A stretch of DNA of 64,000 nucleotides, from assembly GCA_003327425.1 (NCBI GenBank), contig QOQW01000003.1:1-64000 (forward strand), given 5' to 3'. The DNA comes from Candidatus Ozemibacter sibiricus (GTDB lineage: Bacteria > Muiribacteriota > Ozemobacteria > Ozemobacterales > Ozemobacteraceae). Position 1 is the first letter of the stretch. Each line of letters begins with the position of its first letter. The notes beneath the pieces are model-generated. The model was given only the letters and a program-made list of their open reading frames with translations, made no database searches and was not told the origin of the DNA. The position numbers were made by a program, and so were the translations under genes. Shown here one piece after another: positions 17,323 through 64,000 of this stretch.

Positions 17323-17577
17323 GTCCTGTTCTCTCCTGCCGCGGTGGATGTGGACCATGATACCTGATCGCCCGCCGGTTCGGCAGCCCCCTCGGCGACC
17401 GCAGACCTGCCCACCTGGCGGTCTGTTTCACGCTCATGGCGGGGTCACCCCCACCGATCAGGGACGGTGGCCTTGGCACGCCATCGACATGGCCAGACCA
17501 CACCGAGCTGCCAGCCACCTCGGCAAAAAAATAACGGTGGAAATTCTCTTGCGACATTCTGTATACTGGAAGAAACC

Positions 17578-18711
17578 ATGCAAAACTGCCACCATCGCCC
17601 ACCCCGAATTTCCGAACTGGCGGCTGACCGAACGCCAACGGCGATGGTGCTGCTTCTCCTGGTGGGATTCGCCCTGACCACTCTTCCGGAACGCGGTGCG
17701 GCGGCCCCGTTGCCGCTCCCCGAATACACCGCTGTGATCCGGTCCATGGTGGTCGATGCCTCCGGCCGCCTCTGGATCGGCTCGTTCGGTGCCGGGGTGT
17801 GGGTCTGCGAGAACGGCCGCGCCGTGCCGCTCCTCGACGCGCACGGCGAACACCCCAGCCGGCGGATCAGCCGCCTGCTGCTCGACGGACACCGGCTCTG
17901 GGTGGCCACCGCCGGAGAAGGGCTCCTCTGCTATGACACCGCGGCGCGCCGCTGGCTGCCGGTCGACCCCGACCCCGGCCCGAAGATGCGCGCGCTGCAC
18001 GGCCTGGCTCGCACGGCCGACGGCCGCCTGCTTCTGGGGTCCGTCGGCTCCGGGGCCGCCGAGTTGCGCGACGGCGTCTGGCACCACCTCGGGCGCGACC
18101 AGGGCCTCGGCGACGACTGGGTCAACGATATCGCCCCCACCACGACCGGAGCCTGGTTCGCCACCTCGCGCGGAGTCTGGCACGTGGCCGCGGTCGCACC
18201 CTCCGCCTCGTTTGGCTTTCTCTCTTCGGCTCACGCCTCTGCCCCACGGGTCCCGCCCCCTCCCACTGCCGATGCCTGGCTCTACCCAGGGGGATCCTGC
18301 TGCGGCCCCGACGCCTGGGACAACCCGGAAGTGAACGTGCTGCTGCCGCTCGCCTCTTTCACCTTCCTCGGCACCATGGCCGACGGGGCGTTCCGCCATG
18401 ATCCCGATGGCGAGACCCGCAAACTGGCCGGCACCCGCGGCAGCATCCAGGCCCTGTGCCTCTGGCGGAACGCCCTCTGGATCGCCGGTTCCCAGGGTCT
18501 GTGGCAGGTCGGCGATCCGGCCGCCCCCCGCCCCGCCGCCACCCAGCTCCTCACCCCATGGGAACCAGGAGTGACGCTCAAATCGCTGGCCGTGACCCAT
18601 CGCGACTCTCTCTTGATCGGCACCCATGACGGCCGCATTTTTGCAACTTCCGACGGCAAGACCTTTTCCCTCGCCCTGCAGTATGCGGACGGCGGCTTCC
18701 GTCAGCCATGA
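17578..18711 (+). CDS. Stand-alone secreted seven-bladed beta-propeller (module copy 1, gene A)
   Basis: 377 residues. GGAAG five nt upstream fixes the ATG. Residues 20-45 form a membrane or signal segment (TAMVLLLLVGFALTTL). The rest is seven repeats of about 40 residues with the two-component-regulator propeller core LW-I/V-G-T-x-G: LWIGSFGAGV, LWVATAGEGL, LLLGSVGSGA, AWFATSRGVW, TFLGTMADGA, LWIAGSQGLW, LLIGTHDGRI. Such blades usually form the sensor half of hybrid histidine kinases; here no kinase or other domain is attached. First gene of a four-gene set with the TPR, DCCGN and second propeller genes, spaced 34, 95 and 76 bp. A TATACT box sits 10 nt before the start. Confidence 0.82.
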   Translation: MQNCHHRPPRISELAADRTPTAMVLLLLVGFALTTLPERGAAAPLPLPEYTAVIRSMVVDASGRLWIGSFGAGVWVCENGRAVPLLDAHGEHPSRRISRLLLDGHRLWVATAGEGLLCYDTAARRWLPVDPDPGPKMRALHGLARTADGRLLLGSVGSGAAELRDGVWHHLGRDQGLGDDWVNDIAPTTTGAWFATSRGVWHVAAVAPSASFGFLSSAHASAPRVPPPPTADAWLYPGGSCCGPDAWDNPEVNVLLPLASFTFLGTMADGAFRHDPDGETRKLAGTRGSIQALCLWRNALWIAGSQGLWQVGDPAAPRPAATQLLTPWEPGVTLKSLAVTHRDSLLIGTHDGRIFATSDGKTFSLALQYADGGFRQP

Positions 18712-18745
18712 CCAGGGCAAGTATTTCTCCCAAGGAGAGATTCCG

Positions 18746-19999
18746 ATGAACCACCGATTGCTCCGTTCCCCCGCTGGTCCGGTCTGGCTGTTTCTCCTGC
18801 TGGCGTGGGCGCTGGCCGTTTCGCCCAGCCCGGCTGCCCCGCCCGCCGCCCCCGGGGGCGGCACCAATGCTGCCGTCGCCGCCCCTGCCGATGAGGCGAA
18901 TCTGATTGCCCCGCCGGCCCGCGAGGCCTACCAGCAGGGTCTGGCCCTCCTGCGCGACGGCCGCGTGTTCCCGGCCATCCAGAGCATGCTCACCGCGTGG
19001 AAGGCGGATGCCCAGAACCCGGTGCTCCTGTCGAGGCTGGGGCGCCTGATCGCCGAGTTCGGCGAAACCCGGCTGGCCGAAGGTCGGGAGATGCTGGCCC
19101 GCCTGATGGTCCTGCGCAAAGACAACGCCTCGGAAGAGGAGCGCGTCGCCTATGCCCGCACCCTCTTCCTGGTCGAGCCTTTCAAGCTCACCGAGGCGGA
19201 ATCCATCCTCCGCAACATTCTCAAGACCAATCCCCAGAGCGCCGATGCCCTCATCGCCCTCGGCGATCTCGACCTGTTCCGCGGCCACCCCCAGAACGCC
19301 CTCGAGTCCTTCAAACAGGCCAGGACCCTGCGACCGGCCGACAAGCGGGCCCTGTTCGGCATCGCCGAGGCGCTCATCGCCTTGAAGAAGGAGGCCGAGG
19401 CCCTCGATGCCCTGCATACCGCTCTGGTCGCGGCGCCTCGCGACCCGTGGGCTCATGTCCGCATGGGGCGCGGCCTGCTCAAGCTCGGGCAGCCCATCAC
19501 CGCCTCGCGCCATTTCAAGCTGGCCCTCGAAGCCGATCCCGACTATCTCCCCGCCCATCTGGCCTATGTCGCCCAGCTCCTGCCCAACGTCGGCGACATG
19601 ACCGCCTGGAAACATCTGCAAGCCGCGCAGCGCCTCGACCCCGAGAACCCTCAGGTCTACTACTGGCTCGGCTACTTCCAGGAAATGCGCGGTCACATCG
19701 ACCGGGCCGTCGAGAACTACGAGATCGCTGAATCCTTCGGCCCGCAGGCGGTCGAGGCCAAGCTGCGCCTGGCCCGCATCTTCGCCGGCATCGGCCACCG
19801 TTTCCCCGGCAACGTCTTCTCGAACGAAGATTTCATGGCCCAGAAGGAATACCAGCTCTTCTACGACGGGGAACGAGCCCTCCGCCTGCTGCGCGAGGTG
19901 CAGGCCCTGGCCCCCGACCACCCCGAAACCCCGTTCATCACGGCCACCATCGAGAAGCTCGAGACCAGCCTGGCCCGCATCGAAGGCGCTGGTCAATGA
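18746..19999 (+). CDS. Exported TPR-repeat protein (module copy 1, gene B)
   Basis: 417 residues. AAGGAG upstream selects ATG 18746. Signal peptide at residues 1-30 (VWLFLLLAWALAVSPSPAAP). Residues 50-410 are about nine TPR units, for example ADALIALGDLDLFRGHPQNALESF and PWAHVRMGRGLLKLGQPITASRHF. It most likely works in the periplasm as a docking scaffold. It lies 34 bp after the propeller gene and 95 bp before the large DCCGN protein gene, so a common transcript is likely. No equivalent TPR gene is visible in the second module copy, although that copy is cut by the window edge. Confidence 0.82.
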   Translation: MNHRLLRSPAGPVWLFLLLAWALAVSPSPAAPPAAPGGGTNAAVAAPADEANLIAPPAREAYQQGLALLRDGRVFPAIQSMLTAWKADAQNPVLLSRLGRLIAEFGETRLAEGREMLARLMVLRKDNASEEERVAYARTLFLVEPFKLTEAESILRNILKTNPQSADALIALGDLDLFRGHPQNALESFKQARTLRPADKRALFGIAEALIALKKEAEALDALHTALVAAPRDPWAHVRMGRGLLKLGQPITASRHFKLALEADPDYLPAHLAYVAQLLPNVGDMTAWKHLQAAQRLDPENPQVYYWLGYFQEMRGHIDRAVENYEIAESFGPQAVEAKLRLARIFAGIGHRFPGNVFSNEDFMAQKEYQLFYDGERALRLLREVQALAPDHPETPFITATIEKLETSLARIEGAGQ

Positions 20000-20094
20000 G
20001 CCAGATCAGACGATGAAACAAAGTCGCCGCGGCGACCGTACAACCAAAAGGACCCCCGCTCTTCCCTCACCCCCAATCTGCGAAGGAGGAATGC

Positions 20095-22704
20095 ATGACC
20101 CGCTCCGCCCGCCTGCTGCCCCACCCCTGCCGTCTGGCCGGCTGTCTCCTCGTCCTGCTCGTCGGCCTGGCCGGCCTGGCCCGCGCCACCGATGTCTCTT
20201 CCCTGGCCGAAGATGAGAAATTCCTGCCCACCAACATCACCCTCATCTCCGGCATGTCGGTCGAAACCAACGAAGTGCGCCGACCGGCCCGCATGACCCA
20301 CGAACCCAAAGCCTCGGTCGGCGTCTGGTGCCCCTGGCTCGAACCGCCGCCGGTGGTGCGCGACCGCGCCAACAACCTCGACGGACGGCAGGCCAGGATC
20401 TACGTCAATACCGGCGCCACCCGCGACAAGTTCCCGTTCCTCGTGAAGGAAGTGGCGACCGGCAAGTTCTACGTCTATCGCCATGTGCGCTACGAATGGA
20501 AGTTCGAACGCAGCCCGGCCGACGACGCCCAGGGCGGCAACAAACCCGGCAAGTCGGGCCCCGCCATCTGGACCCCCTTCTACCGCCAGGCCCTCCTCGA
20601 AAGCGAAGTCTTGAACTTCATCCAACGGTTCGCCGAAGACAAGGCCACCAACGACGATCTGCCCGAGAAGAAGTGCTACGCCAATCGGCACACCACCCCC
20701 TACGACTCGGGCATCACCGGCAACACCCAGGTCGCCGAATCGACCGTCCTGCAGCAGGTCGGCATGACCCTGTCCTATGACCGGGCCGAAGTCGTGCCTG
20801 ACAAGGTCGAAGGCCCCGGGTATCCCGATGGCGATCTCGGCACCGCCGATCTGGCCGATCCGCTGCATCAGATCAATGGCACCGCCGAACTCAACACCCC
20901 CGTCGATGCCGACCGCTGGGTGAGCAGCCGGGTCATCAACCCGGTCCCCAAGCACCTCGCCAAGATCTGGACCCTCGGCGACAGCTCGGTCTACACCCTC
21001 TGCTACGTCGAGGATTACCGCAAGCCGGAAGGCTCGCCCCTGGCCTCGCGCGGCCAGACCTACGAAGGCACCGTCGGCGGCTACATCAAAGGCGGCGTCG
21101 TCATCGACTATGAAGACGACAACATCCATGCCAAACAGGAATCCGACCAGATGCAGGCCAAGCTGAAGTACTACGTGGCCAACGGCGACATCTACAAGGT
21201 CGAGAACCCCTTCTACGGGGAAACCTCGACCCACGAAACCCGTTCGCAGCCGTATCTGTACTTCTTCTACCTCGGGGCGAACTACGAGTTCGGCCCCTAC
21301 ACCTGCGCCGCCCAGCGCGACCGCGAACTCGACTGGTACAGCGAAGGCCATCCCTACTGGGCCGGCAAGGACCCCGCCGCCATCATCGATTACGTCCGCG
21401 AGCGCTACGGCAACGCCTGGAACTCGGCCAGCATCCCCGATTGGGAGATGGGCGTCGTCTATGTCACCCTCGGCCTCGACGGCAAGGGGAAGAATTCCAA
21501 GCGCATCACCGAACAGCTCAACGAAGCCTGGACCACCGGCTCGCTGGCCCGCTGCTCCTACTTCCACGCCCTGCGCGACGACCTGAAGGCGCGGGCCGGG
21601 TCGAATCCGACCGCTGCCATCAGCCGGGCCTTGACCTGCCTGGCGGCCCTCGAGCAGGCGATCGCCCGTCCGGAATCCGTGGGCATCCGCGGCGACCGCA
21701 CCTTCTTCCGGTTCGCGCCGGCCGGCTACGATCCCAACCTCGGTTCCTACTGCGTCGGACCCCAGACTCTCGAGAAGAACAATCCCCAGGTCCATCAAGA
21801 ATGGATCGCCGACAAGCAGGGCGTGCCCATCAAGAAAGGCAAATGGATTCTCGCCGAGAAGCGCCTGATCCTGCCCAAGCATTACACCCAGGCCGCCTGC
21901 GACTCGTGCAGCACCGACCTGTTCACCTCCAAGCAGATCCTGCAGGTCGTCCTGGCCGATTGCTGCGGCAACATGACCACCGTCAACCCCTCGACCGTCA
22001 ACACTCGCGACGGCGTCTTCATCCATGACGACGCCCAGTCTTCGCTGCCGGTGCCCCAGATGGTCCTGCACAACCCCATGACCAAGGTCGACATCCCGAT
22101 CCAGGTTCCCGGCGACGATTCGCTGGCCTGGGGCCAGAAGCTGGTCGTCAAATCCAAGAAGGATGGCACCGAACGGGCCTACGGCCCCAATGAATTCGGC
22201 GGTCAGTTCGACCTCGCCGCCAACGACTTCTTCCTGCAGGACCGCGACGGCAAGCGCGAGCCGATCCAGTTCCTGCCGGAAAACGACCCCGAGAAGGCCA
22301 TCTACGAAGACACCCGGATCCAGTTCACTCTCGGCGGCTACGACAACATCGACGGCATGTCGAGCTTCCGAGGCGTGGGCAAACAGCGCCTGGCCATCTA
22401 CACGCTCGATGACGCCGGCCACCGCATCGGCCCCGAAACCCTCGAATTCACCGATGAGAGCGGCCAGATCCGCACCGGGGAGTTCATCGAACGCGAAAAT
22501 AAAGGCGATCCGTACAAGTTCAATCCTCAGTACAAGTTCCACCACATCTTCCGCAAGCCCGGGCTGTACCAGATCGAATACGTGCTGACCGAGTACACCA
22601 ACCCGAGCGGGCCCAAGCAGTCCCGCACCCTGACCTACAACGTGCGGGTCCTCGACGCCAAGACCGAGAATCGCAGCCTGCAGCAGGACACGATCCGGCA
22701 ATGA
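20095..22704 (+). CDS. Large exported DCCGN-motif protein (module copy 1, gene C)
   Basis: 869 residues. GGAGG ten nt upstream. Signal peptide at 1-31 (CLLVLLVGLAGLARA). No known domain recognised. It is clearly homologous to the protein encoded at 61843-64000: shared blocks include QQVGMTLSYDRAEV, CYVEDYRKP, SYCVGPQTLEK, LPKHYTQ, VLADCCGN, AIYEDTRIQF...DNIDGM, KFHHIFRKPGLYQIEYVL and the terminus VRVLDAKTENRS. The paired Cys in ADCCGN and the bulky aromatic blocks suggest a folded extracellular or periplasmic protein stabilised by disulfides or metal. The last block (FRKPGLYQIEYVLTEY) resembles an Ig-like or PKD-like strand pattern. Followed by a strong hairpin and a propeller gene, an order repeated in the second copy. 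Confidence 0.8.
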   Translation: MTRSARLLPHPCRLAGCLLVLLVGLAGLARATDVSSLAEDEKFLPTNITLISGMSVETNEVRRPARMTHEPKASVGVWCPWLEPPPVVRDRANNLDGRQARIYVNTGATRDKFPFLVKEVATGKFYVYRHVRYEWKFERSPADDAQGGNKPGKSGPAIWTPFYRQALLESEVLNFIQRFAEDKATNDDLPEKKCYANRHTTPYDSGITGNTQVAESTVLQQVGMTLSYDRAEVVPDKVEGPGYPDGDLGTADLADPLHQINGTAELNTPVDADRWVSSRVINPVPKHLAKIWTLGDSSVYTLCYVEDYRKPEGSPLASRGQTYEGTVGGYIKGGVVIDYEDDNIHAKQESDQMQAKLKYYVANGDIYKVENPFYGETSTHETRSQPYLYFFYLGANYEFGPYTCAAQRDRELDWYSEGHPYWAGKDPAAIIDYVRERYGNAWNSASIPDWEMGVVYVTLGLDGKGKNSKRITEQLNEAWTTGSLARCSYFHALRDDLKARAGSNPTAAISRALTCLAALEQAIARPESVGIRGDRTFFRFAPAGYDPNLGSYCVGPQTLEKNNPQVHQEWIADKQGVPIKKGKWILAEKRLILPKHYTQAACDSCSTDLFTSKQILQVVLADCCGNMTTVNPSTVNTRDGVFIHDDAQSSLPVPQMVLHNPMTKVDIPIQVPGDDSLAWGQKLVVKSKKDGTERAYGPNEFGGQFDLAANDFFLQDRDGKREPIQFLPENDPEKAIYEDTRIQFTLGGYDNIDGMSSFRGVGKQRLAIYTLDDAGHRIGPETLEFTDESGQIRTGEFIERENKGDPYKFNPQYKFHHIFRKPGLYQIEYVLTEYTNPSGPKQSRTLTYNVRVLDAKTENRSLQQDTIRQ

Positions 22705-22737
22705 CCGACGGTCGCGGCATCCCATCACGATGATCAG

Positions 22738-22766
22738 GAAGGGCGCCCCCGGCGGGGGCGCCCTTC
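22738..22766 (+). other. 13-bp hairpin between DCCGN and propeller genes
   Basis: Perfect arms 22738-22750 and 22754-22766, loop GGC, 33 bp after the DCCGN stop and ending 4 bp before the GGAGG of the next gene. No U-tract, so it may be a processing or attenuation element, not a full terminator. The second module copy has a hairpin at the equivalent place (61794-61826). Confidence 0.7.
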
Positions 22767-22780
22767 CCTCCGGAGGCTCC

Positions 22781-23899
22781 ATGAACCAATCCCTCTGTTC
22801 CGCTCGTGTCCTGCCCCGCGCCCGGTCCGACCGCCGTGCCCGCGACCCGCTCGCCGACACCATCGGGCGGCCGTGCGCGCCCCTGCTGGTAGCGGTTCTG
22901 GCGCTCTGCCTGACCCCCTGGTCCCCCGGGTTCGCCCAGGCCGGCTTCGATATCAAATCGCGCCTCTCCGTACAAACGCCATCCGACCCCGTCCTGGCCA
23001 AAGCCCGTATCGACTCGGTCTTCCTCGCCTCGACCACCGTCCTGTGGGGCACCAGCGCCGGCCTGTTCATCGAGCGCCCCGACGGCACCGGCACCTGGTG
23101 GAACGCCGGCAATGCCCCATTCAAGCTCGAGGAATTCGTGGCGGTCGCGGCCCGCGCCCCCAACGAGCTGTGGGTGGCGGTGCGCAATCCCGCCGCCGGC
23201 CAGGGGCTCTTCCTCTACGACGGCACGCGCTGGCAGCGGTTCCACCCCAGCCTCAACGAGATGCTCTCCGAGCTGACCAACTGCCTGCTGGTCGATGCCA
23301 GGAACCGCCTGTGGGTCGGGTACGAGGAGCGCGGCATCGATCGCTTCATCGGCGAAGGCTACGGCACCAAGACCTTGCGCCTGTTCGGCGGCCTCAAGGT
23401 CAAGGATGGCCTGCTCCCCGGCTCGGTCAACAGCCTCGCCGAGAGCGGCGGCCGCATCTGGGTCGGCTCCACGTCGGGCCTCTGCCGGTTCGACCCCGAC
23501 AGCGAGCACAAGACCAGCTTCGAATCCTGGACCTTCGAACGCGGCTTTCCCGACCATGCCGTCTGGGCCGTCATCCCCTACGGGAATGGCCGCGTGGCCT
23601 GCGGAACCGATCAGGGCTTCGTCGTCCCCGACGGCGAGGGCTGGAAGCTGATCGGCCGCGCCGACGGCCTCGCCACCGTGCCGGTCAAGGCCATCGCCAC
23701 CGAGCGCGGCCGGCTCTGGGTCGGCCACAATGAAGGGCTGCAGGTCTACGAGAACGGCCGGCTCTCCGCCCTGCTCTATACCCCCGACCTGTTGCCGGCC
23801 CAGCCCGTCCGCTGCCTGGCCGCCCGCGAGCTGCCCGATGGCACTTCGCGCCTCTTCGTCGGCACCGAAGCCGGCGCCCGCGTGTTCACCGTTCGCTGA
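22781..23899 (+). CDS. Stand-alone secreted seven-bladed beta-propeller (module copy 1, gene D)
   Basis: 372 residues. GGAGG at 22772-22776 selects the ATG. Long basic N-region, then a signal segment at about 33-54 (APLLVAVLALCLTPWSPGFAQA). Seven blades are visible: VLWGTSAGLF, LWVAVRNPAAGQGLF, LWVGYEERGI, IWVGSTSGLC, VACGTDQGFV, LWVGHNEGLQVYENG, LFVGTEAGARVF. The end (RCLAARELPDGTSRLFVGTEAG) is closely similar to the end of the propeller at 60739-61749 (RCLAIGRGPDGGTRLYVGTERG), so the two are paralogues. Likely a periplasmic or surface ligand-binding propeller that partners the DCCGN protein. Confidence 0.82.
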   Translation: MNQSLCSARVLPRARSDRRARDPLADTIGRPCAPLLVAVLALCLTPWSPGFAQAGFDIKSRLSVQTPSDPVLAKARIDSVFLASTTVLWGTSAGLFIERPDGTGTWWNAGNAPFKLEEFVAVAARAPNELWVAVRNPAAGQGLFLYDGTRWQRFHPSLNEMLSELTNCLLVDARNRLWVGYEERGIDRFIGEGYGTKTLRLFGGLKVKDGLLPGSVNSLAESGGRIWVGSTSGLCRFDPDSEHKTSFESWTFERGFPDHAVWAVIPYGNGRVACGTDQGFVVPDGEGWKLIGRADGLATVPVKAIATERGRLWVGHNEGLQVYENGRLSALLYTPDLLPAQPVRCLAARELPDGTSRLFVGTEAGARVFTVR

Positions 23900-58154: not shown

Positions 58155-59312
58155 TCAGGCCGGACGACCGAATTTCCGAGCCAGCGCCTGGTAGGCCTCC
58201 TGAACCCGCCGATACTCCTGCTGCGCGAATTCCCGGAAGCTGTCGGGCAGGGTCGGATACAGGTCGGGATGGTATTCCCGGCTCTTCTTCTGCCAGGCCT
58301 CGGTGATGGCCTCCCAGGATGCCCCCGGGGCCAGGCCCAGCACTTTGTACCAGGGGAAATCCTCGGGCTGGAAATCGGCAGCCATCTTGCCGAATTCGGC
58401 ATCGCCGATGCCGAACCGGCGCCGGATGCCATCGATCAGGGACAGCTCGCTCGCCTCCAGCTCGCCATCGGCCGAGGCGATGCTGAGCAGCAAAGCGATG
58501 ATGACCTGCTTCTCCTGGGCCGGACGACCGGCCAACTTGTTCAGGACCGGCTCGAGATCGGGCGGCTCGGCCAGGAAGCGCTTCAGGATCTGCCGCGCCT
58601 GCCCCATCTTGGCGGGCTGTCCCTGGAAGAGGCGGGCGTGGAAATCCCGTACCACCTGGATCTCTTCAGGTTTGATCACCCCATCGACCCGGATGACAGC
58701 CGAGGTCAGCGCCACCACCCCTTCTTCGAAGGGATCGAGTTCGTCGGGAGCGACCGGCGGCCGCGGAGCCAGCAGGGCCCAGCGCTCGGCGAACAGTTCG
58801 GGCAGATCGAGAGGTCCACCGGTCGACAGCAGGAAATCGGGCTGTTCATCGATGAGAGTGAACACGCACAGCCAGGGGTCCCGGTTCTCGGGCCCGCCGC
58901 TGAGGACGCCATAGGGGATGAACACCCGCTCCTCGAGGTCGGTGATGGTCGCGATGGTGGTCATGAATTCCTTCCGCATCAGGAACCGGCCTCGCGGATC
59001 GGCGTAGATGGGAATCGAGGAGGCGAGCGCCTCGCCCGTCGTGCGATCGGCGATGGTCAGCAGGTGATCGCCCCGACAGTGGCGGAACCCGTGCAAACGG
59101 GTCTTCCAGGTCACGCTCATGCCGAAGATGCCGAAGCGATACCCCTTGGGCTCGATCGGCAGGATCTGCAACGAGCCTTGCCGGGTCTTGGGCTGGAAGG
59201 CGAACGTTTCGCCCACTTTGGCCAGCGGGGCCGACCGCCCTGAGCCTGGAGCCGCCTCCCGACCGAGGATGAACCCCAGGATTTCCGCCGCGAAGGGACC
59301 CCGGCCCGTCAT
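58155..59312 (-). CDS. TerB-DnaJ (DjlA-like) protein (module copy 2)
   Basis: 385 residues. The ATG (59312) overlaps the stop of the propeller-cytochrome gene (ATGA). Residues 1-190 are an unrecognised strand-rich domain with a His/Cys pair (LHGFRHCRGDHLLTI). Residues 195-320 are TerB-like helices (LTSAVIRVDGVIKPEEI, LLLSIASADGELEASELSLIDGIRRRF). The last 65 residues are a J-domain, WYKVLGLAPGASWEAI...YHPDLYP, with the HPD tripeptide that activates Hsp70. TerB plus J-domain is the DjlA architecture, but the membrane helix of DjlA is missing. Cytosolic, in contrast to the exported upstream products, so the operon connects cytosol and envelope. Confidence 0.85.
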   Translation of the reverse strand: MTGRGPFAAEILGFILGREAAPGSGRSAPLAKVGETFAFQPKTRQGSLQILPIEPKGYRFGIFGMSVTWKTRLHGFRHCRGDHLLTIADRTTGEALASSIPIYADPRGRFLMRKEFMTTIATITDLEERVFIPYGVLSGGPENRDPWLCVFTLIDEQPDFLLSTGGPLDLPELFAERWALLAPRPPVAPDELDPFEEGVVALTSAVIRVDGVIKPEEIQVVRDFHARLFQGQPAKMGQARQILKRFLAEPPDLEPVLNKLAGRPAQEKQVIIALLLSIASADGELEASELSLIDGIRRRFGIGDAEFGKMAADFQPEDFPWYKVLGLAPGASWEAITEAWQKKSREYHPDLYPTLPDSFREFAQQEYRRVQEAYQALARKFGRPA

Positions 59313-60727
59313 TCCTTGGCTCCGAACATCATCCACATCTGGAGCATCTTGATGGTATTGGGGTCGACCTGGCCGGCCATGCCGCCCCCGACATCGCAAA
59401 AGGACAAGAATCGGTCGAGCTTGGCTTTGCGAAAATACGCCAGCACCACGACCGGGTCGTTCAGCGGAAAGTATTTGCCGGTACCGGTCGTGTGGCAGGG
59501 CAGGCATTCCTTGACCATGACGGGCAGGATATCCTTATAGAAGCTCAGGTTGGTCATGCGCTGTTTCTTCGTCATGGTCCAGTGCGGACGCACCCGGCCG
59601 CTGCTTTCTCCCCCACTCGAGGGGGGATTTCCCTCTGAAGGAGCGGCAGCCCTGGGCGGGTTGGCCAGGCCAGGGGGCGAGAAGATCACCACATCGCGTA
59701 GGGGCACGCCCCCGGTGGGGGGCGAGGCCGCCGTTCCTGCCAAGGCCGCAGGGGTGGCACCGGCCCCGGGTTCGCTCGGCAGGCGCAAGAGGCCCATACC
59801 ACCGGTGCCGATCCAGAACGCCCCGGCGCTGCGCGCGAGGGCCATCACCGGCACCGGTCCTGCCACCTCGGGCAGGGGGACCTCTTCAACGGCGCCGCCG
59901 GCCCGTGCCAGAAACAGTCCGCGAGCGGTGCCGCAGAGGACATTCCCCCCGACGGTGGGCCAGAGCGCATGGAACCGGGAGGTGGGGAACCGATCGCGGC
60001 CCCACGTCTGGCGGCGTCCATCGGGGGCGATCGCCACCAGCCCGAATTCGCCGGCCGCGAAGATGGCGCCGTTCTCGATGGCGACCGCATCGACGGCCGG
60101 TTCGGGGTAGACGCCCAGGTTGATGGGGGTGACGGCATTGGTCGTGGTCACCCGGAACGCTCCCAACGCCGTGGCCACGATCACCTGCGCGCCATCGGCG
60201 GCCAGGCTGCGGATGGCCGGAGGCACCGCCTTCGGCAGCGGAATGGGTTCGCACAGCAGGCCGTTGTAGGCGCACAATCCTTCGCGCGTGCCGACGAACA
60301 GTCGATTGCCCAGGACCGCCAGCGCCTCGACGAAGTTATCGGGCAAACCGAGATCGTTCTGCGAGAAGGTGCGCCAGCGATCGCCTTCCAGGCGGGCCAG
60401 GCCATGGCCATGGGTGCCGACCCATACCTGCCCGCCCAGCACCGCCACCGCCCGCGCGGCCGCATCGGGGAAGCCCCGTTCCCCCCGTCGCCAGCTTTCG
60501 AGACGATCGGGCCGCACCAGGGTGACACCGCTCGGGGTGGCCACCACCAAAGCCTCGCCCAGGTCGGCCATGGCCTGCAGGTAATTGTCGACCAGCCCGC
60601 TGTTGGTGCGCGCGAACCGCACCGCGGCGGGTTGTCCGAGCAAGCGCCAGCCCTCCCCCACGACCAGGAGGCCGGCCACCAGGGCGGCCAGCGGCAGCAG
60701 CCAGCGCAGCGGTCGCGATCGGTTCAT
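59309..60727 (-). CDS. Seven-bladed propeller with C-terminal heme-c (CXXCH) domain (module copy 2)
   Basis: 472 residues from ATG 60727, preceded by GAGGGGGG. N-terminal membrane anchor (PLRWLLPLAALVAGLLVVG, 6-24). Seven blades: LVVATPSGVT, VWVGTHGHGL, LFVGTREGLC, VIVATALGAF, IFAAGEFGLV, VLCGTARGLF, FWIGTGGMGL. A Pro/Gly linker follows, then a C-terminal 80-residue domain SFYKDILPVMVKECLPCHTTGTG with one CXXCH, the covalent heme attachment site; MAGQVD downstream offers a Met that could be the second ligand. The sequence is like the cytochrome modules of Planctomycete-type proteins. It is the only one of the four propellers with this domain. Starts 12 bp after the propeller at 60739. Confidence 0.85.
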   Translation of the reverse strand: MNRSRPLRWLLPLAALVAGLLVVGEGWRLLGQPAAVRFARTNSGLVDNYLQAMADLGEALVVATPSGVTLVRPDRLESWRRGERGFPDAAARAVAVLGGQVWVGTHGHGLARLEGDRWRTFSQNDLGLPDNFVEALAVLGNRLFVGTREGLCAYNGLLCEPIPLPKAVPPAIRSLAADGAQVIVATALGAFRVTTTNAVTPINLGVYPEPAVDAVAIENGAIFAAGEFGLVAIAPDGRRQTWGRDRFPTSRFHALWPTVGGNVLCGTARGLFLARAGGAVEEVPLPEVAGPVPVMALARSAGAFWIGTGGMGLLRLPSEPGAGATPAALAGTAASPPTGGVPLRDVVIFSPPGLANPPRAAAPSEGNPPSSGGESSGRVRPHWTMTKKQRMTNLSFYKDILPVMVKECLPCHTTGTGKYFPLNDPVVVLAYFRKAKLDRFLSFCDVGGGMAGQVDPNTIKMLQMWMMFGAKE

Positions 60728-60738
60728 GACATCCCCCC

Positions 60739-61749
60739 TCACAGTCGCTTGAAGATGGCCAGCCCTCTCTCGGTGCCGACATACAGGCGCGTCCCCCCAT
60801 CGGGCCCGCGACCGATCGCCAGACACCGGATCTGATGGGCCGGCAGGCCATCCCGGTGATCGATGGGCGGCTCGATCCGGCCGCCCCGCATCACCTGCAA
60901 CCCCCGAGCAGTCCCGATCCACAGATCGGAACCATCGACGGCGAGGGCGGTGATCCAGGCGTCGGCCAGACCAGCTTCCTTGCCCAGTAGCCGCCAGGAG
61001 CCATTCTCGAAAATCTGCAAGCCCAGGGTGGAACCGGCATAGACCCGCTCGGGAGTCGCCGCCAGGGCGGTGATCCGGTCGGCGGGCAAGCCGGAGGTCA
61101 AGGTGTGGTTGGTCACCAGGGCGCGATCGCCCTCCTGGCCCCGATAGACGCTGATGCCAGCCACGGTGCCGATCCACAGCTCGCCGGGGCGGCTGGTCAG
61201 ACACATGATCTGGTTGCTGACGATCCCCTTCTTGGTGGCCAGGTAGCCGAATTTGCGAAAGGGGTTGGTCTCGTGGACGTAGTAATTGAGCCCCTGATCT
61301 TCGGTGCCGATCCACAGGACGTTCTTGTCATCGACATGGAAGCAGGAGACATAGTTCGACTGCATGTCGTCCTTGATCTCTTCGAACCATTCCCACTGCA
61401 GGCCATCCCAGCGGTAGGTACCGCCGCCGGCGACCGGGGAACGACAGGTGGTCCACAGTTCATGGCCCCGCACCGCCATGGCCGGGATCATCAAGAACTT
61501 GAGCTTCGAATTCTCCGGGGTCCAGTGGGTGATGGTACCGTCTTTCTTCAGGACATTCAGATATTTGCGCGTGCCGATGTACACATGTTCGGGGCCGACC
61601 GCCAGCGAGAGGATCACCGGATGGCTCAAGCCCTCCTTCGGCGTCAAGACGCGCTCCAACTGCAGACCTGCCGGCATTACCGCACTGACCTGGGGAACGG
61701 CTGCCAACAGGCACCCCAGCATGATCACCCACCATCCCGTCCGTCTCAT
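60739..61749 (-). CDS. Stand-alone secreted seven-bladed propeller (module copy 2)
   Basis: 336 residues. GGGAGGG before the ATG. Signal peptide 1-23 (WWVIMLGCLLAAVPQVSA). Seven blades: VYIGTRKYLN, LWTTCRSPVAGGGTY, LWIGTEDQGL, LWIGTVAGIS, VYAGSTLGLQ, LWIGTARGLQ, LYVGTERGLA. Its end matches that of the propeller at 22781. It follows the DCCGN gene (61843) by 93 bp with a terminator-like hairpin between, the same order as in copy 1. The next gene begins 11 bp after the stop. Confidence 0.85.
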   Translation of the reverse strand: MRRTGWWVIMLGCLLAAVPQVSAVMPAGLQLERVLTPKEGLSHPVILSLAVGPEHVYIGTRKYLNVLKKDGTITHWTPENSKLKFLMIPAMAVRGHELWTTCRSPVAGGGTYRWDGLQWEWFEEIKDDMQSNYVSCFHVDDKNVLWIGTEDQGLNYYVHETNPFRKFGYLATKKGIVSNQIMCLTSRPGELWIGTVAGISVYRGQEGDRALVTNHTLTSGLPADRITALAATPERVYAGSTLGLQIFENGSWRLLGKEAGLADAWITALAVDGSDLWIGTARGLQVMRGGRIEPPIDHRDGLPAHQIRCLAIGRGPDGGTRLYVGTERGLAIFKRL

Positions 61750-61793
61750 CTGTCTGTCCCTCCCGCAGAGGCTGTAATAGGGCCAGAATAGCG

Positions 61794-61826
61794 AAAAACC
61801 CGGGGAGACGCAAGGTCTCCCCGGGT
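61794..61826 (-). terminator. Terminator between DCCGN and propeller genes
   Basis: Perfect 12-bp arms 61798-61809 and 61815-61826, loop of 5, followed on the minus strand by TTTTT (AAAAA at 61794-61798 on plus). It lies 16 bp after the DCCGN stop. Confidence 0.9.
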
Positions 61827-61842
61827 CGCGCTGGGCTGGAAC

Positions 61843-64000
61843 TTACTGCCGGCGCTGGTGATCTTCGATGGTGCGGTTGTCGGACTTGAGGTCGAGCACC
61901 TTCACCCGGAAGAACAGGCGCTGTTCATTGGGCTGGCTGTCGAAGGGCACGTCGCGGACGGTGTATTCCACGCGATAGAGGCCGGGGTTGCGGAAGATGT
62001 GGTAGAACTTCAGGTCGGGTTTGAACTGGCTCAACCGGCCATTGTACGGGGGATCGAAGATCGACCGTTCGATCTTCTCGTCCTTGTTGCCGTTCTCATC
62101 TTCCAGCAGCTCGTACTTCCCGGTGGGGTTGCCGTTGGCATCGAGTTCCTGGATCTGCATCTTGTAGTAGCTGATGCCGCGGTGCTTGTGGAAGTTGTCG
62201 ATGTTGTCCCAGGCGTGGGCCGCGATGTTGAGGCGGGTGTCTTCGTAGATCACCTTGTCGCCGGACAACAGCGAGGAGCCGATCGGCGGTTGCAGACCTT
62301 CGCCCGACTTGTTGATGCTGATCTCCTTGGTGGTGAGATCGTTGTCCTGGAGGGAGGAAGCCTGGGCATACTCACTGACCTCCCCCGTCCGGGGATCCTT
62401 CACGATCAGTTTGTCACCATAGTCGAGCTGGTCATCGGCCGGCACGCCGACCACATGATCGTTCCCGTTGGCATCCGACAGGGTGCATTCGCAGTTCGGC
62501 TTGGAGCCTTCGCCGCTGTCATTGACCTTCAGGAAGCCGACCTGGTTGGTGGTATTGCCGCAGCAGTCCGCCATGTCGACCTTGAACATCAGGTCGGGCA
62601 CCTTCTGCATCCATTCGTGACCGTATTTGTTGATGAAGTTGGAGTTGGTGCCAGCCACCTGGAGTTCGAGAGGAACGCCCGCATCGGCCGCGGTGTTGAC
62701 CCGGTGCCATTTGCCATCATTGCCGAGGACGAAGTTCTGGCTGTCGGTGGCCATCTGTTCGCCGGAGTGGCGAGTGCCGGCCGTGGAATCCCATTCGATG
62801 GAGTTGACCGCGAAGTGCTTGGGCAGCAGAACGCGGGGGCCGGGGATCATCCAGGTTGCCTGCTTGACCTCCTGGCCATCGACCGTGACGTTCTTCTCTT
62901 CGTAGATGCCGGCGATCTTTTCGAATTCGATGGGGCCGACGCAGTAGCGGCCGCCATCCTTGAATTCGATATAGGAGAAGCGGTTGTAGTCGGTCTTGCC
63001 GTTGGCCGCCAGGTGGGCCTTGAAGGCGGCGAGGTCGGCTGCCGCTTTCTTGCCGCGTTCCCCCATCTCTTTGTACTCGTTGATCATGGCGTCGATCTCA
63101 GGATTGACATCGATCGGGCGCCCATCCTTGTCTTTCTTGCCGGTGACGTGGCTGTTGAGGGTCTTGATCTTCAACAAGCCGCTGTTGCGCTCATCGAGGA
63201 TGAAGTAGCACAGGCCGCGGGCCCAGGGAGCCAGGCTCTTGGCGCTGTAGGCGTTGGCATACCGGTTGGTGATGTAATCTTCGACCTCTTCGGCGCTGCG
63301 GCGGCTCCAGATCGGATCGATGTTCTTGTAATAGTCGTATTCCTCGGCCTTCTTGGCAGGACCGACGTACGGACCGTAGACCACGGTGTCATCGAACACC
63401 GGCGGATTGTCGGAGATCTTGACCCGCTCCCAGGACGAGCCGTTCCAGGTCATCTTGTAGGTCGGCGGGAGGTAGACGAAATAGATGTACGGCTCGGAGG
63501 TCGGATCATCCGGGTCGTAGGCCGGATTGTCGAGTTTGTACAGGTCCATGTTGCCGCACTCATAGTTCATGCTGGCCTTGAGGCGGTCCGAGGTGACGAC
63601 GGCGTTGGGGTTGTCGTCCTCGGTCTCGAACAGGATGCCCTGAACCTTCTTCCAGGAATTGGTGCTCTTGTCGTAGACGGAATCGACGAAGCCGCCGGCA
63701 TTCCCGCGGTAGATCTTGACATCGGTGGATTTGACGCTGGGCGCCGAATAGTCTTCGACGTACACGCGGTTGACCGCGGTGAAACCGCCCAGGTCGCTCT
63801 TCAGGCCGAACTTCTCGGGAGTGGCATTGATGAGCTTCTTGCTCTCCCAGTTAGTGGGTTCGCTGTTGAGCTGGGCGGGGCTGATGGTGTTGGTGTCGAT
63901 GACGCCATTGTCGGCATTGCCGTAGTAGCCATCGCCCGTCACGCCGGTCGGGGCGACCTCGGCCCGCTCATAGGTCAGGGTCATGCCGACTTCCTGCAGT
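61843..64000 (-). CDS. Large DCCGN-motif protein, N-terminus outside window (module copy 2)
   Basis: At least 719 residues; the frame stays open to the right edge, and LQEVG before the first internal Met matches LQQVG at the same place in the homologue, so the start lies beyond the window. Homologous to the protein at 20095-22704: VGMTLTYERAEVAP, RVYVEDYSAP, RYCVGPIEFEK, LPKHFAV, MADCCGN, VIYEDTRLNI...DNIDNF, KFYHIFRNPGLYRVEYTV, VKVLDLKSDNR. It lacks some inserts of the other copy and has its own (CECTLSDANGNDHVVG). Presumably exported, as its homologue carries a signal peptide. Followed by a true terminator and the copy 2 propellers. Confidence 0.8.
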   Translation of the reverse strand, partial: LQEVGMTLTYERAEVAPTGVTGDGYYGNADNGVIDTNTISPAQLNSEPTNWESKKLINATPEKFGLKSDLGGFTAVNRVYVEDYSAPSVKSTDVKIYRGNAGGFVDSVYDKSTNSWKKVQGILFETEDDNPNAVVTSDRLKASMNYECGNMDLYKLDNPAYDPDDPTSEPYIYFVYLPPTYKMTWNGSSWERVKISDNPPVFDDTVVYGPYVGPAKKAEEYDYYKNIDPIWSRRSAEEVEDYITNRYANAYSAKSLAPWARGLCYFILDERNSGLLKIKTLNSHVTGKKDKDGRPIDVNPEIDAMINEYKEMGERGKKAAADLAAFKAHLAANGKTDYNRFSYIEFKDGGRYCVGPIEFEKIAGIYEEKNVTVDGQEVKQATWMIPGPRVLLPKHFAVNSIEWDSTAGTRHSGEQMATDSQNFVLGNDGKWHRVNTAADAGVPLELQVAGTNSNFINKYGHEWMQKVPDLMFKVDMADCCGNTTNQVGFLKVNDSGEGSKPNCECTLSDANGNDHVVGVPADDQLDYGDKLIVKDPRTGEVSEYAQASSLQDNDLTTKEISINKSGEGLQPPIGSSLLSGDKVIYEDTRLNIAAHAWDNIDNFHKHRGISYYKMQIQELDANGNPTGKYELLEDENGNKDEKIERSIFDPPYNGRLSQFKPDLKFYHIFRNPGLYRVEYTVRDVPFDSQPNEQRLFFRVKVLDLKSDNRTIEDHQRRQ

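Follow-up and report, generated by a model that had tools for sequence, protein, structure and literature searches.

A seven-bladed propeller protein with a predicted heme c domain in a conserved secreted-protein cassette of Candidatus Ozemobacteraceae

The 64,000-nucleotide stretch of DNA that we analysed (the window) carries two paralogous gene cassettes, one on the plus strand at 17467-23899 and one on the minus strand from 59309 to 63999 and onward; the latter runs beyond the window, to about 68324 on contig C29, with its genes in the order FloA, propeller A, TPR protein, large secreted protein, propeller B, heme-propeller and TerB-DnaJ. The heme-propeller, whose own propeller we call propeller C, is our main subject, and its parts and neighbours are as follows.

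58155..59312, minus strand: TerB-DnaJ gene, adjacent to the heme gene in three same-genus genomes only
59309..60727, minus strand: gene for propeller C plus heme domain, 472 residues (open reading frame; orthologues; dN/dS by region against orthologue G002)
60632..60727, minus strand: export-like leader, residues about 1-32 (a basic and then a hydrophobic stretch, by inspection; leaders alike in orthologues)
59768..60595, minus strand: seven propeller blades, residues 45-320 (repeat HMM; phmmer match to 3va6/3ott)
59582..59767, minus strand: linker rich in Pro, Gly, Ala and Ser, residues 321 to about 382-384 (composition)
59312..59581, minus strand: C-terminal heme domain, residues 383-472, about 90 residues (orthologue alignments; PSCyt1-like by profile comparison)
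59492..59506, minus strand: CXXCH heme attachment motif, residues 408-412 (sequence and orthologue alignment)
59378..59380, minus strand: Met450, invariant, predicted distal heme ligand (orthologue alignment)
60739..61749, minus strand: propeller B, tandem neighbour, without CXXCH (Reg_prop match)
61843..63999, continuing to about 64731 of the contig, minus strand: large secreted protein of no known family (sequence comparison)
17467..18711, plus strand: propeller A of the paralogous cassette
18626..19999, plus strand: TPR protein of the paralogous cassette
20095..22704, plus strand: large secreted protein of the paralogous cassette
22730..23899, plus strand: propeller B of the paralogous cassette, followed by an opposite-strand gene from 24029 and no heme gene

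The heme-propeller gene begins a few bases after propeller B and shares four bases (ATGA) with the TerB-DnaJ gene, an arrangement consistent with a single operon. Just past the large secreted gene, at window positions 61799-61825, lies an inverted repeat (cccggggagac / gtctccccggg) followed by a minus-strand T run; by eye it resembles an intrinsic terminator, and propeller B and the heme gene may accordingly be transcribed separately.

The original prediction described an exported protein at 59309-60727 made of seven blades, a linker and a CXXCH site, and our analysis bears this out, with export suggested by inspection of the N-terminus, MNRSRPLRWLLPLAALVAGLLVVG, which is Sec-signal-like and has similar counterparts in the orthologues. 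The seven blades are 34-43 residues each; an HMM made from these blades recovers all seven here by construction, and the seven that it also finds in each of the G002 and G001 orthologues are an independent result. The linker holds 12 Pro, 10 Gly, 11 Ala and 7 Ser among the 64 residues from 321 to 384, and the heme motif that follows, C408-L-P-C411-H412, is the single CXXCH of the whole protein.

Compared with the PDB by phmmer, the propeller matched the periplasmic sensor propellers 3va6 and 3ott (E 1.6e-9), with which it shares short blades and a W.GT..GL-like core. It scored 15.9 bits against a Reg_prop (PF07494) cut-off of 20.4, thus missing a threshold that propeller B passes. Hybrid two-component sensors of this kind continue after the propeller into a membrane helix and a kinase, whereas the chain here ends with the heme domain; we therefore rejected that identity for the heme-propeller.

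We wondered whether the CXXCH motif could have arisen by chance. Of shuffled versions of the mature protein, 0.085% contain one, and both cysteines and the histidine are kept in all four complete orthologues (G001, G002, G003 and G004, from three genera; a further copy, in G010, is cut off by the end of its contig), which together argue that it is not a chance occurrence. The methionine 38 residues downstream of the histidine is likewise invariant in the five aligned sequences, that is, the window protein and these four orthologues, and we predict that it is the distal heme ligand. Heme domains of the complete orthologues are 53-92% identical, with 30 of 78 alignment positions invariant, and the alignment lacks a second conserved cysteine pair of the sort expected for a zinc ribbon. 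Against the close relative G002, dN/dS is lowest in the heme domain (0.064), followed by the propeller (0.110) and the linker (0.201); against the more distant G001 the heme domain (0.31) is not singled out from the propeller (0.36). Judging by these substitution rates, the heme domain is under purifying selection.

A search of 40 genomes from the phylum found the domain in five, and its named carriers are Candidatus Ozemobacteraceae/Riflebacteria metagenome-assembled genomes. It is intact in orthologues whose overall size differs widely: that of G003 (L036 189-2852) has 887 residues, while that of G004 (L038 869-1762) has 297 and about three blades. Since the propeller varies in size in these two genomes while the heme domain stays, the heme domain is the constant part of the protein, and the comparison suggests that it is the part most needed, with the propeller serving as a mount.

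The heme domain reaches no Pfam family cut-off, that of PSCyt1 (PF07635) included, in any of five members tested. Its only PDB sequence matches, with E values no better than 0.08, were to protein disulphide isomerase; they lie outside the heme motif and were discarded as chance. AlphaFold2 gave an unusable model of the full chain from its single sequence (pLDDT 42), and from the five-sequence alignment a low-confidence, three-helix model of the heme domain (pLDDT 56) in which the first helix ends at the motif and the invariant methionine precedes the last helix; this is a layout such as a class I cytochrome would show, at a confidence too low for it to count, and Foldseek found no significant match to the model. 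On the fold, which the original prediction had named as a second ground for refutation, the model thus weighs neither way. Comparison of profiles with the class I cytochromes of the phylum scored 26.8, within the range of 23-33 obtained from column shuffles that keep CXXCH, and thus says nothing either way about likeness to that class.

A further comparison was made with a PSCyt1-type lipoprotein that most of the searched Ozemobacteraceae genomes encode. By hhalign the heme domain scored 31.2 against it, where 100 shuffles had a mean of 11.8 and a maximum of 19.2, and with the heme motif masked the stretch SFYKDILPVMVKE still aligned; the significant alignment is confined to the domain's first half. 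The shared features are a stretch like F.(K/R)(D/N)ILP(V/I) ahead of the heme motif and I..W...GA close to the C-terminus, seen in the PSCyt1 (PF07635) lipoprotein of L105; the two differ in that the lipoprotein has CX4CH and a Met-Pro loop, whereas the window domain has CXXCH. We consider that the heme domain resembles PSCyt1, over its first half at least, although it is not a member by Pfam's rule. The lipoprotein-like protein itself, of about 215 residues with the motif C-S-I-V-G-C-H, occurs in eight genomes of the family (at L105, with its match at G000:C45:35566-35727, and at L100, L101, L103, L104 and L107-L109); a paper on Verrucomicrobia (PMC5615132) states that PSCyt proteins have no known function.

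Attachment of heme c would also call for maturation machinery, and the original prediction had proposed searching the genome for it. We found ResB at C54:30679-32106, side by side with a CcsA that carries WGWDPKETW; by sequence this pair is a System II cytochrome c maturation system, so that the lack of such a system, which had been named as grounds for refuting the heme, does not apply. The other genomes with the heme-propeller gene, G001-G004 and G010, have ResB as well. CXXCH-encoding DNA patterns number 312 across the genome, about twice the 145 of a reversed control. A Cytochrom_C_asm match at C35:69211 sits beside a siroheme-type gene and has a HemX-like appearance; for these reasons we did not include it in the maturation machinery. 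Near this siroheme/HemX-like gene pair, at L040 2915-4612 (G000:C35), lies a gene for a protein with about ten CXXCH motifs, a candidate multiheme cytochrome.

Taken together, the invariant cysteines and histidine, the methionine downstream of them, purifying selection, the export-like leader and the presence of ResB and CcsA make it very likely that heme c is covalently attached to the C-terminal domain. The opposing view, in which CXXCH serves to bind some other metal or to make a disulphide, or is a remnant of a lost function, could draw on the low-confidence domain model and the missing Pfam cytochrome match; we consider it improbable, given that the two cysteines and the histidine are invariant with no second cysteine pair to complete a zinc ribbon, that selection is purifying, and that the genome has a maturation system and the domain a PSCyt1-like profile.

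What the heme would do is a separate question. Its role may be structural or accessory, the domain stabilising a secreted complex by helping a partner to fold or to bind metal, without electron transfer. This has a precedent in Myxococcus xanthus, where the exported mono-heme cytochrome TfcP is reported to support the propeller protein PilY1, its neighbour by gene position, and was judged unlikely to have a role in electron transport (PMC8833165); like that system, the cassette has no redox enzyme, and in both an exported mono-heme cytochrome would work with a secreted propeller protein. TfcP and PilY1 are, however, two separate proteins of type IVa pili, and the distal ligand of TfcP is a cysteine, with a very low potential, whereas in the window protein cytochrome and propeller are fused and the invariant residue is a methionine, as is usual in electron carriers; nor did we see pilin genes beside the heme-propeller gene. 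On balance we regard a purely structural heme as unlikely. The protein might instead be a sensor, the second idea of the original prediction: its heme would respond to a gas (oxygen or NO) or to redox potential, and its propeller would relay the change to a partner. This reading is encouraged by the rank of sensor propellers from hybrid two-component systems as the top solved relatives; we think it quite unlikely, because such similarity is common to many propellers whose roles are unrelated, the heme domain is followed by neither a kinase nor a transmembrane part, the invariant methionine points to a six-coordinate heme, which would be less apt to bind a gas, and the propeller is nearly lost in G004.

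Fusions of propellers and cytochromes are also known among enzymes. Type II PQQ-dependent quinohemoprotein alcohol dehydrogenases consist of an eight-bladed PQQ propeller, a linker and a C-terminal mono-heme domain, and cytochrome cd1 nitrite reductase has an N-terminal cytochrome c domain fused to an eight-bladed propeller that holds heme d1. The window protein shares with the dehydrogenases the order of its parts, so that its propeller might be catalytic and pass electrons to a built-in heme. Its seven blades rather than eight, the lack of a match to PQQ-type or other enzyme families in Pfam (E up to 10) and the reduction of the G004 propeller to about three blades make such an enzyme highly improbable, and the identity as a quinohemoprotein alcohol dehydrogenase was rejected on blade number and family match. 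Cytochrome cd1 nitrite reductase, with which the fusion itself is shared, was likewise rejected, there being no family match and the CXXCH being C-terminal in the window protein.

Electron transfer would be the likeliest role of the heme domain: a heme that is tethered to a propeller by a linker and probably His/Met-ligated would fit a small electron carrier docked on a larger exported assembly. We propose that the protein is an exported mono-heme c-type cytochrome domain, held by a flexible linker on a seven-bladed propeller, that carries electrons for a secreted assembly, a reading in which we place about even confidence and against which the lack of a redox enzyme in the cassette counts. 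The heme on the propeller tail would be His/Met-ligated and redox-active; the propeller would dock the protein to propellers A and B, the TPR protein and the large secreted protein, contacts that the gene order suggests; and the heme domain, swinging on its linker, would hand single electrons between a partner and the secreted complex. The original prediction had coupled a redox function to a ligand-binding propeller. Its heme has gained from the conservation of the motif and from ResB and CcsA, while its coupling has lost ground, since no output domain follows the heme domain and the retention of that domain in G004 with about three blades weakens the idea of ligand sensing.

How the heme-propeller is distributed among cassettes bears on what it may add. 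The core cassette order is the same in six genomes of five genera, with FloA not seen in G004, where the contig ends, and TerB-DnaJ found in the same genus only. The heme gene is missing from the other cassettes examined, several of which lie on short contigs, and neither propeller B (60739-61749) nor any gene of the paralogous cassette at 17467-23899 encodes a CXXCH. The earlier remark that copy 2 may have something missing from copy 1 is therefore correct as regards the heme site, whether copy 1 is taken as the upstream tandem propeller or as the paralogous cassette, and it extends across the cassette family. Being found in one cassette type only, the heme-propeller is probably an added part, one that would turn an otherwise heme-free assembly redox-active. 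More tentatively, and with the balance somewhat against it, the exported assembly of Ozemobacteraceae might exist in two versions in some genomes, one of them wired into electron flow, so that redox and non-redox forms would occur in the same cell.

Propeller-cytochrome fusions have been described before; here the heme domain falls below family cut-offs and stands within a conserved exported cassette, on which we found nothing in the literature searched, so that this secreted-protein cassette of Candidatus Ozemobacteraceae appears, as far as that search shows, to be undescribed. Because a single genome holds both a cassette with the heme part and one that lacks it, what the heme does could be tested by comparing the two, and the pair offers a way into the envelope biology of an uncultured phylum. 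The largest protein of the cassette (about 900-960 residues) has no recognised relatives: it has no Pfam or PDB relative and no match in roughly 340 genomes searched outside the phylum, and elsewhere within the phylum we found two weak partial matches. Its relatives are found in 15 Ozemobacteraceae genomes, and in the protein, encoded in the window at 20095-22704 and 61843-63999, a CCGN motif is invariant and a C-terminal segment around HIFR..G.Y is conserved.
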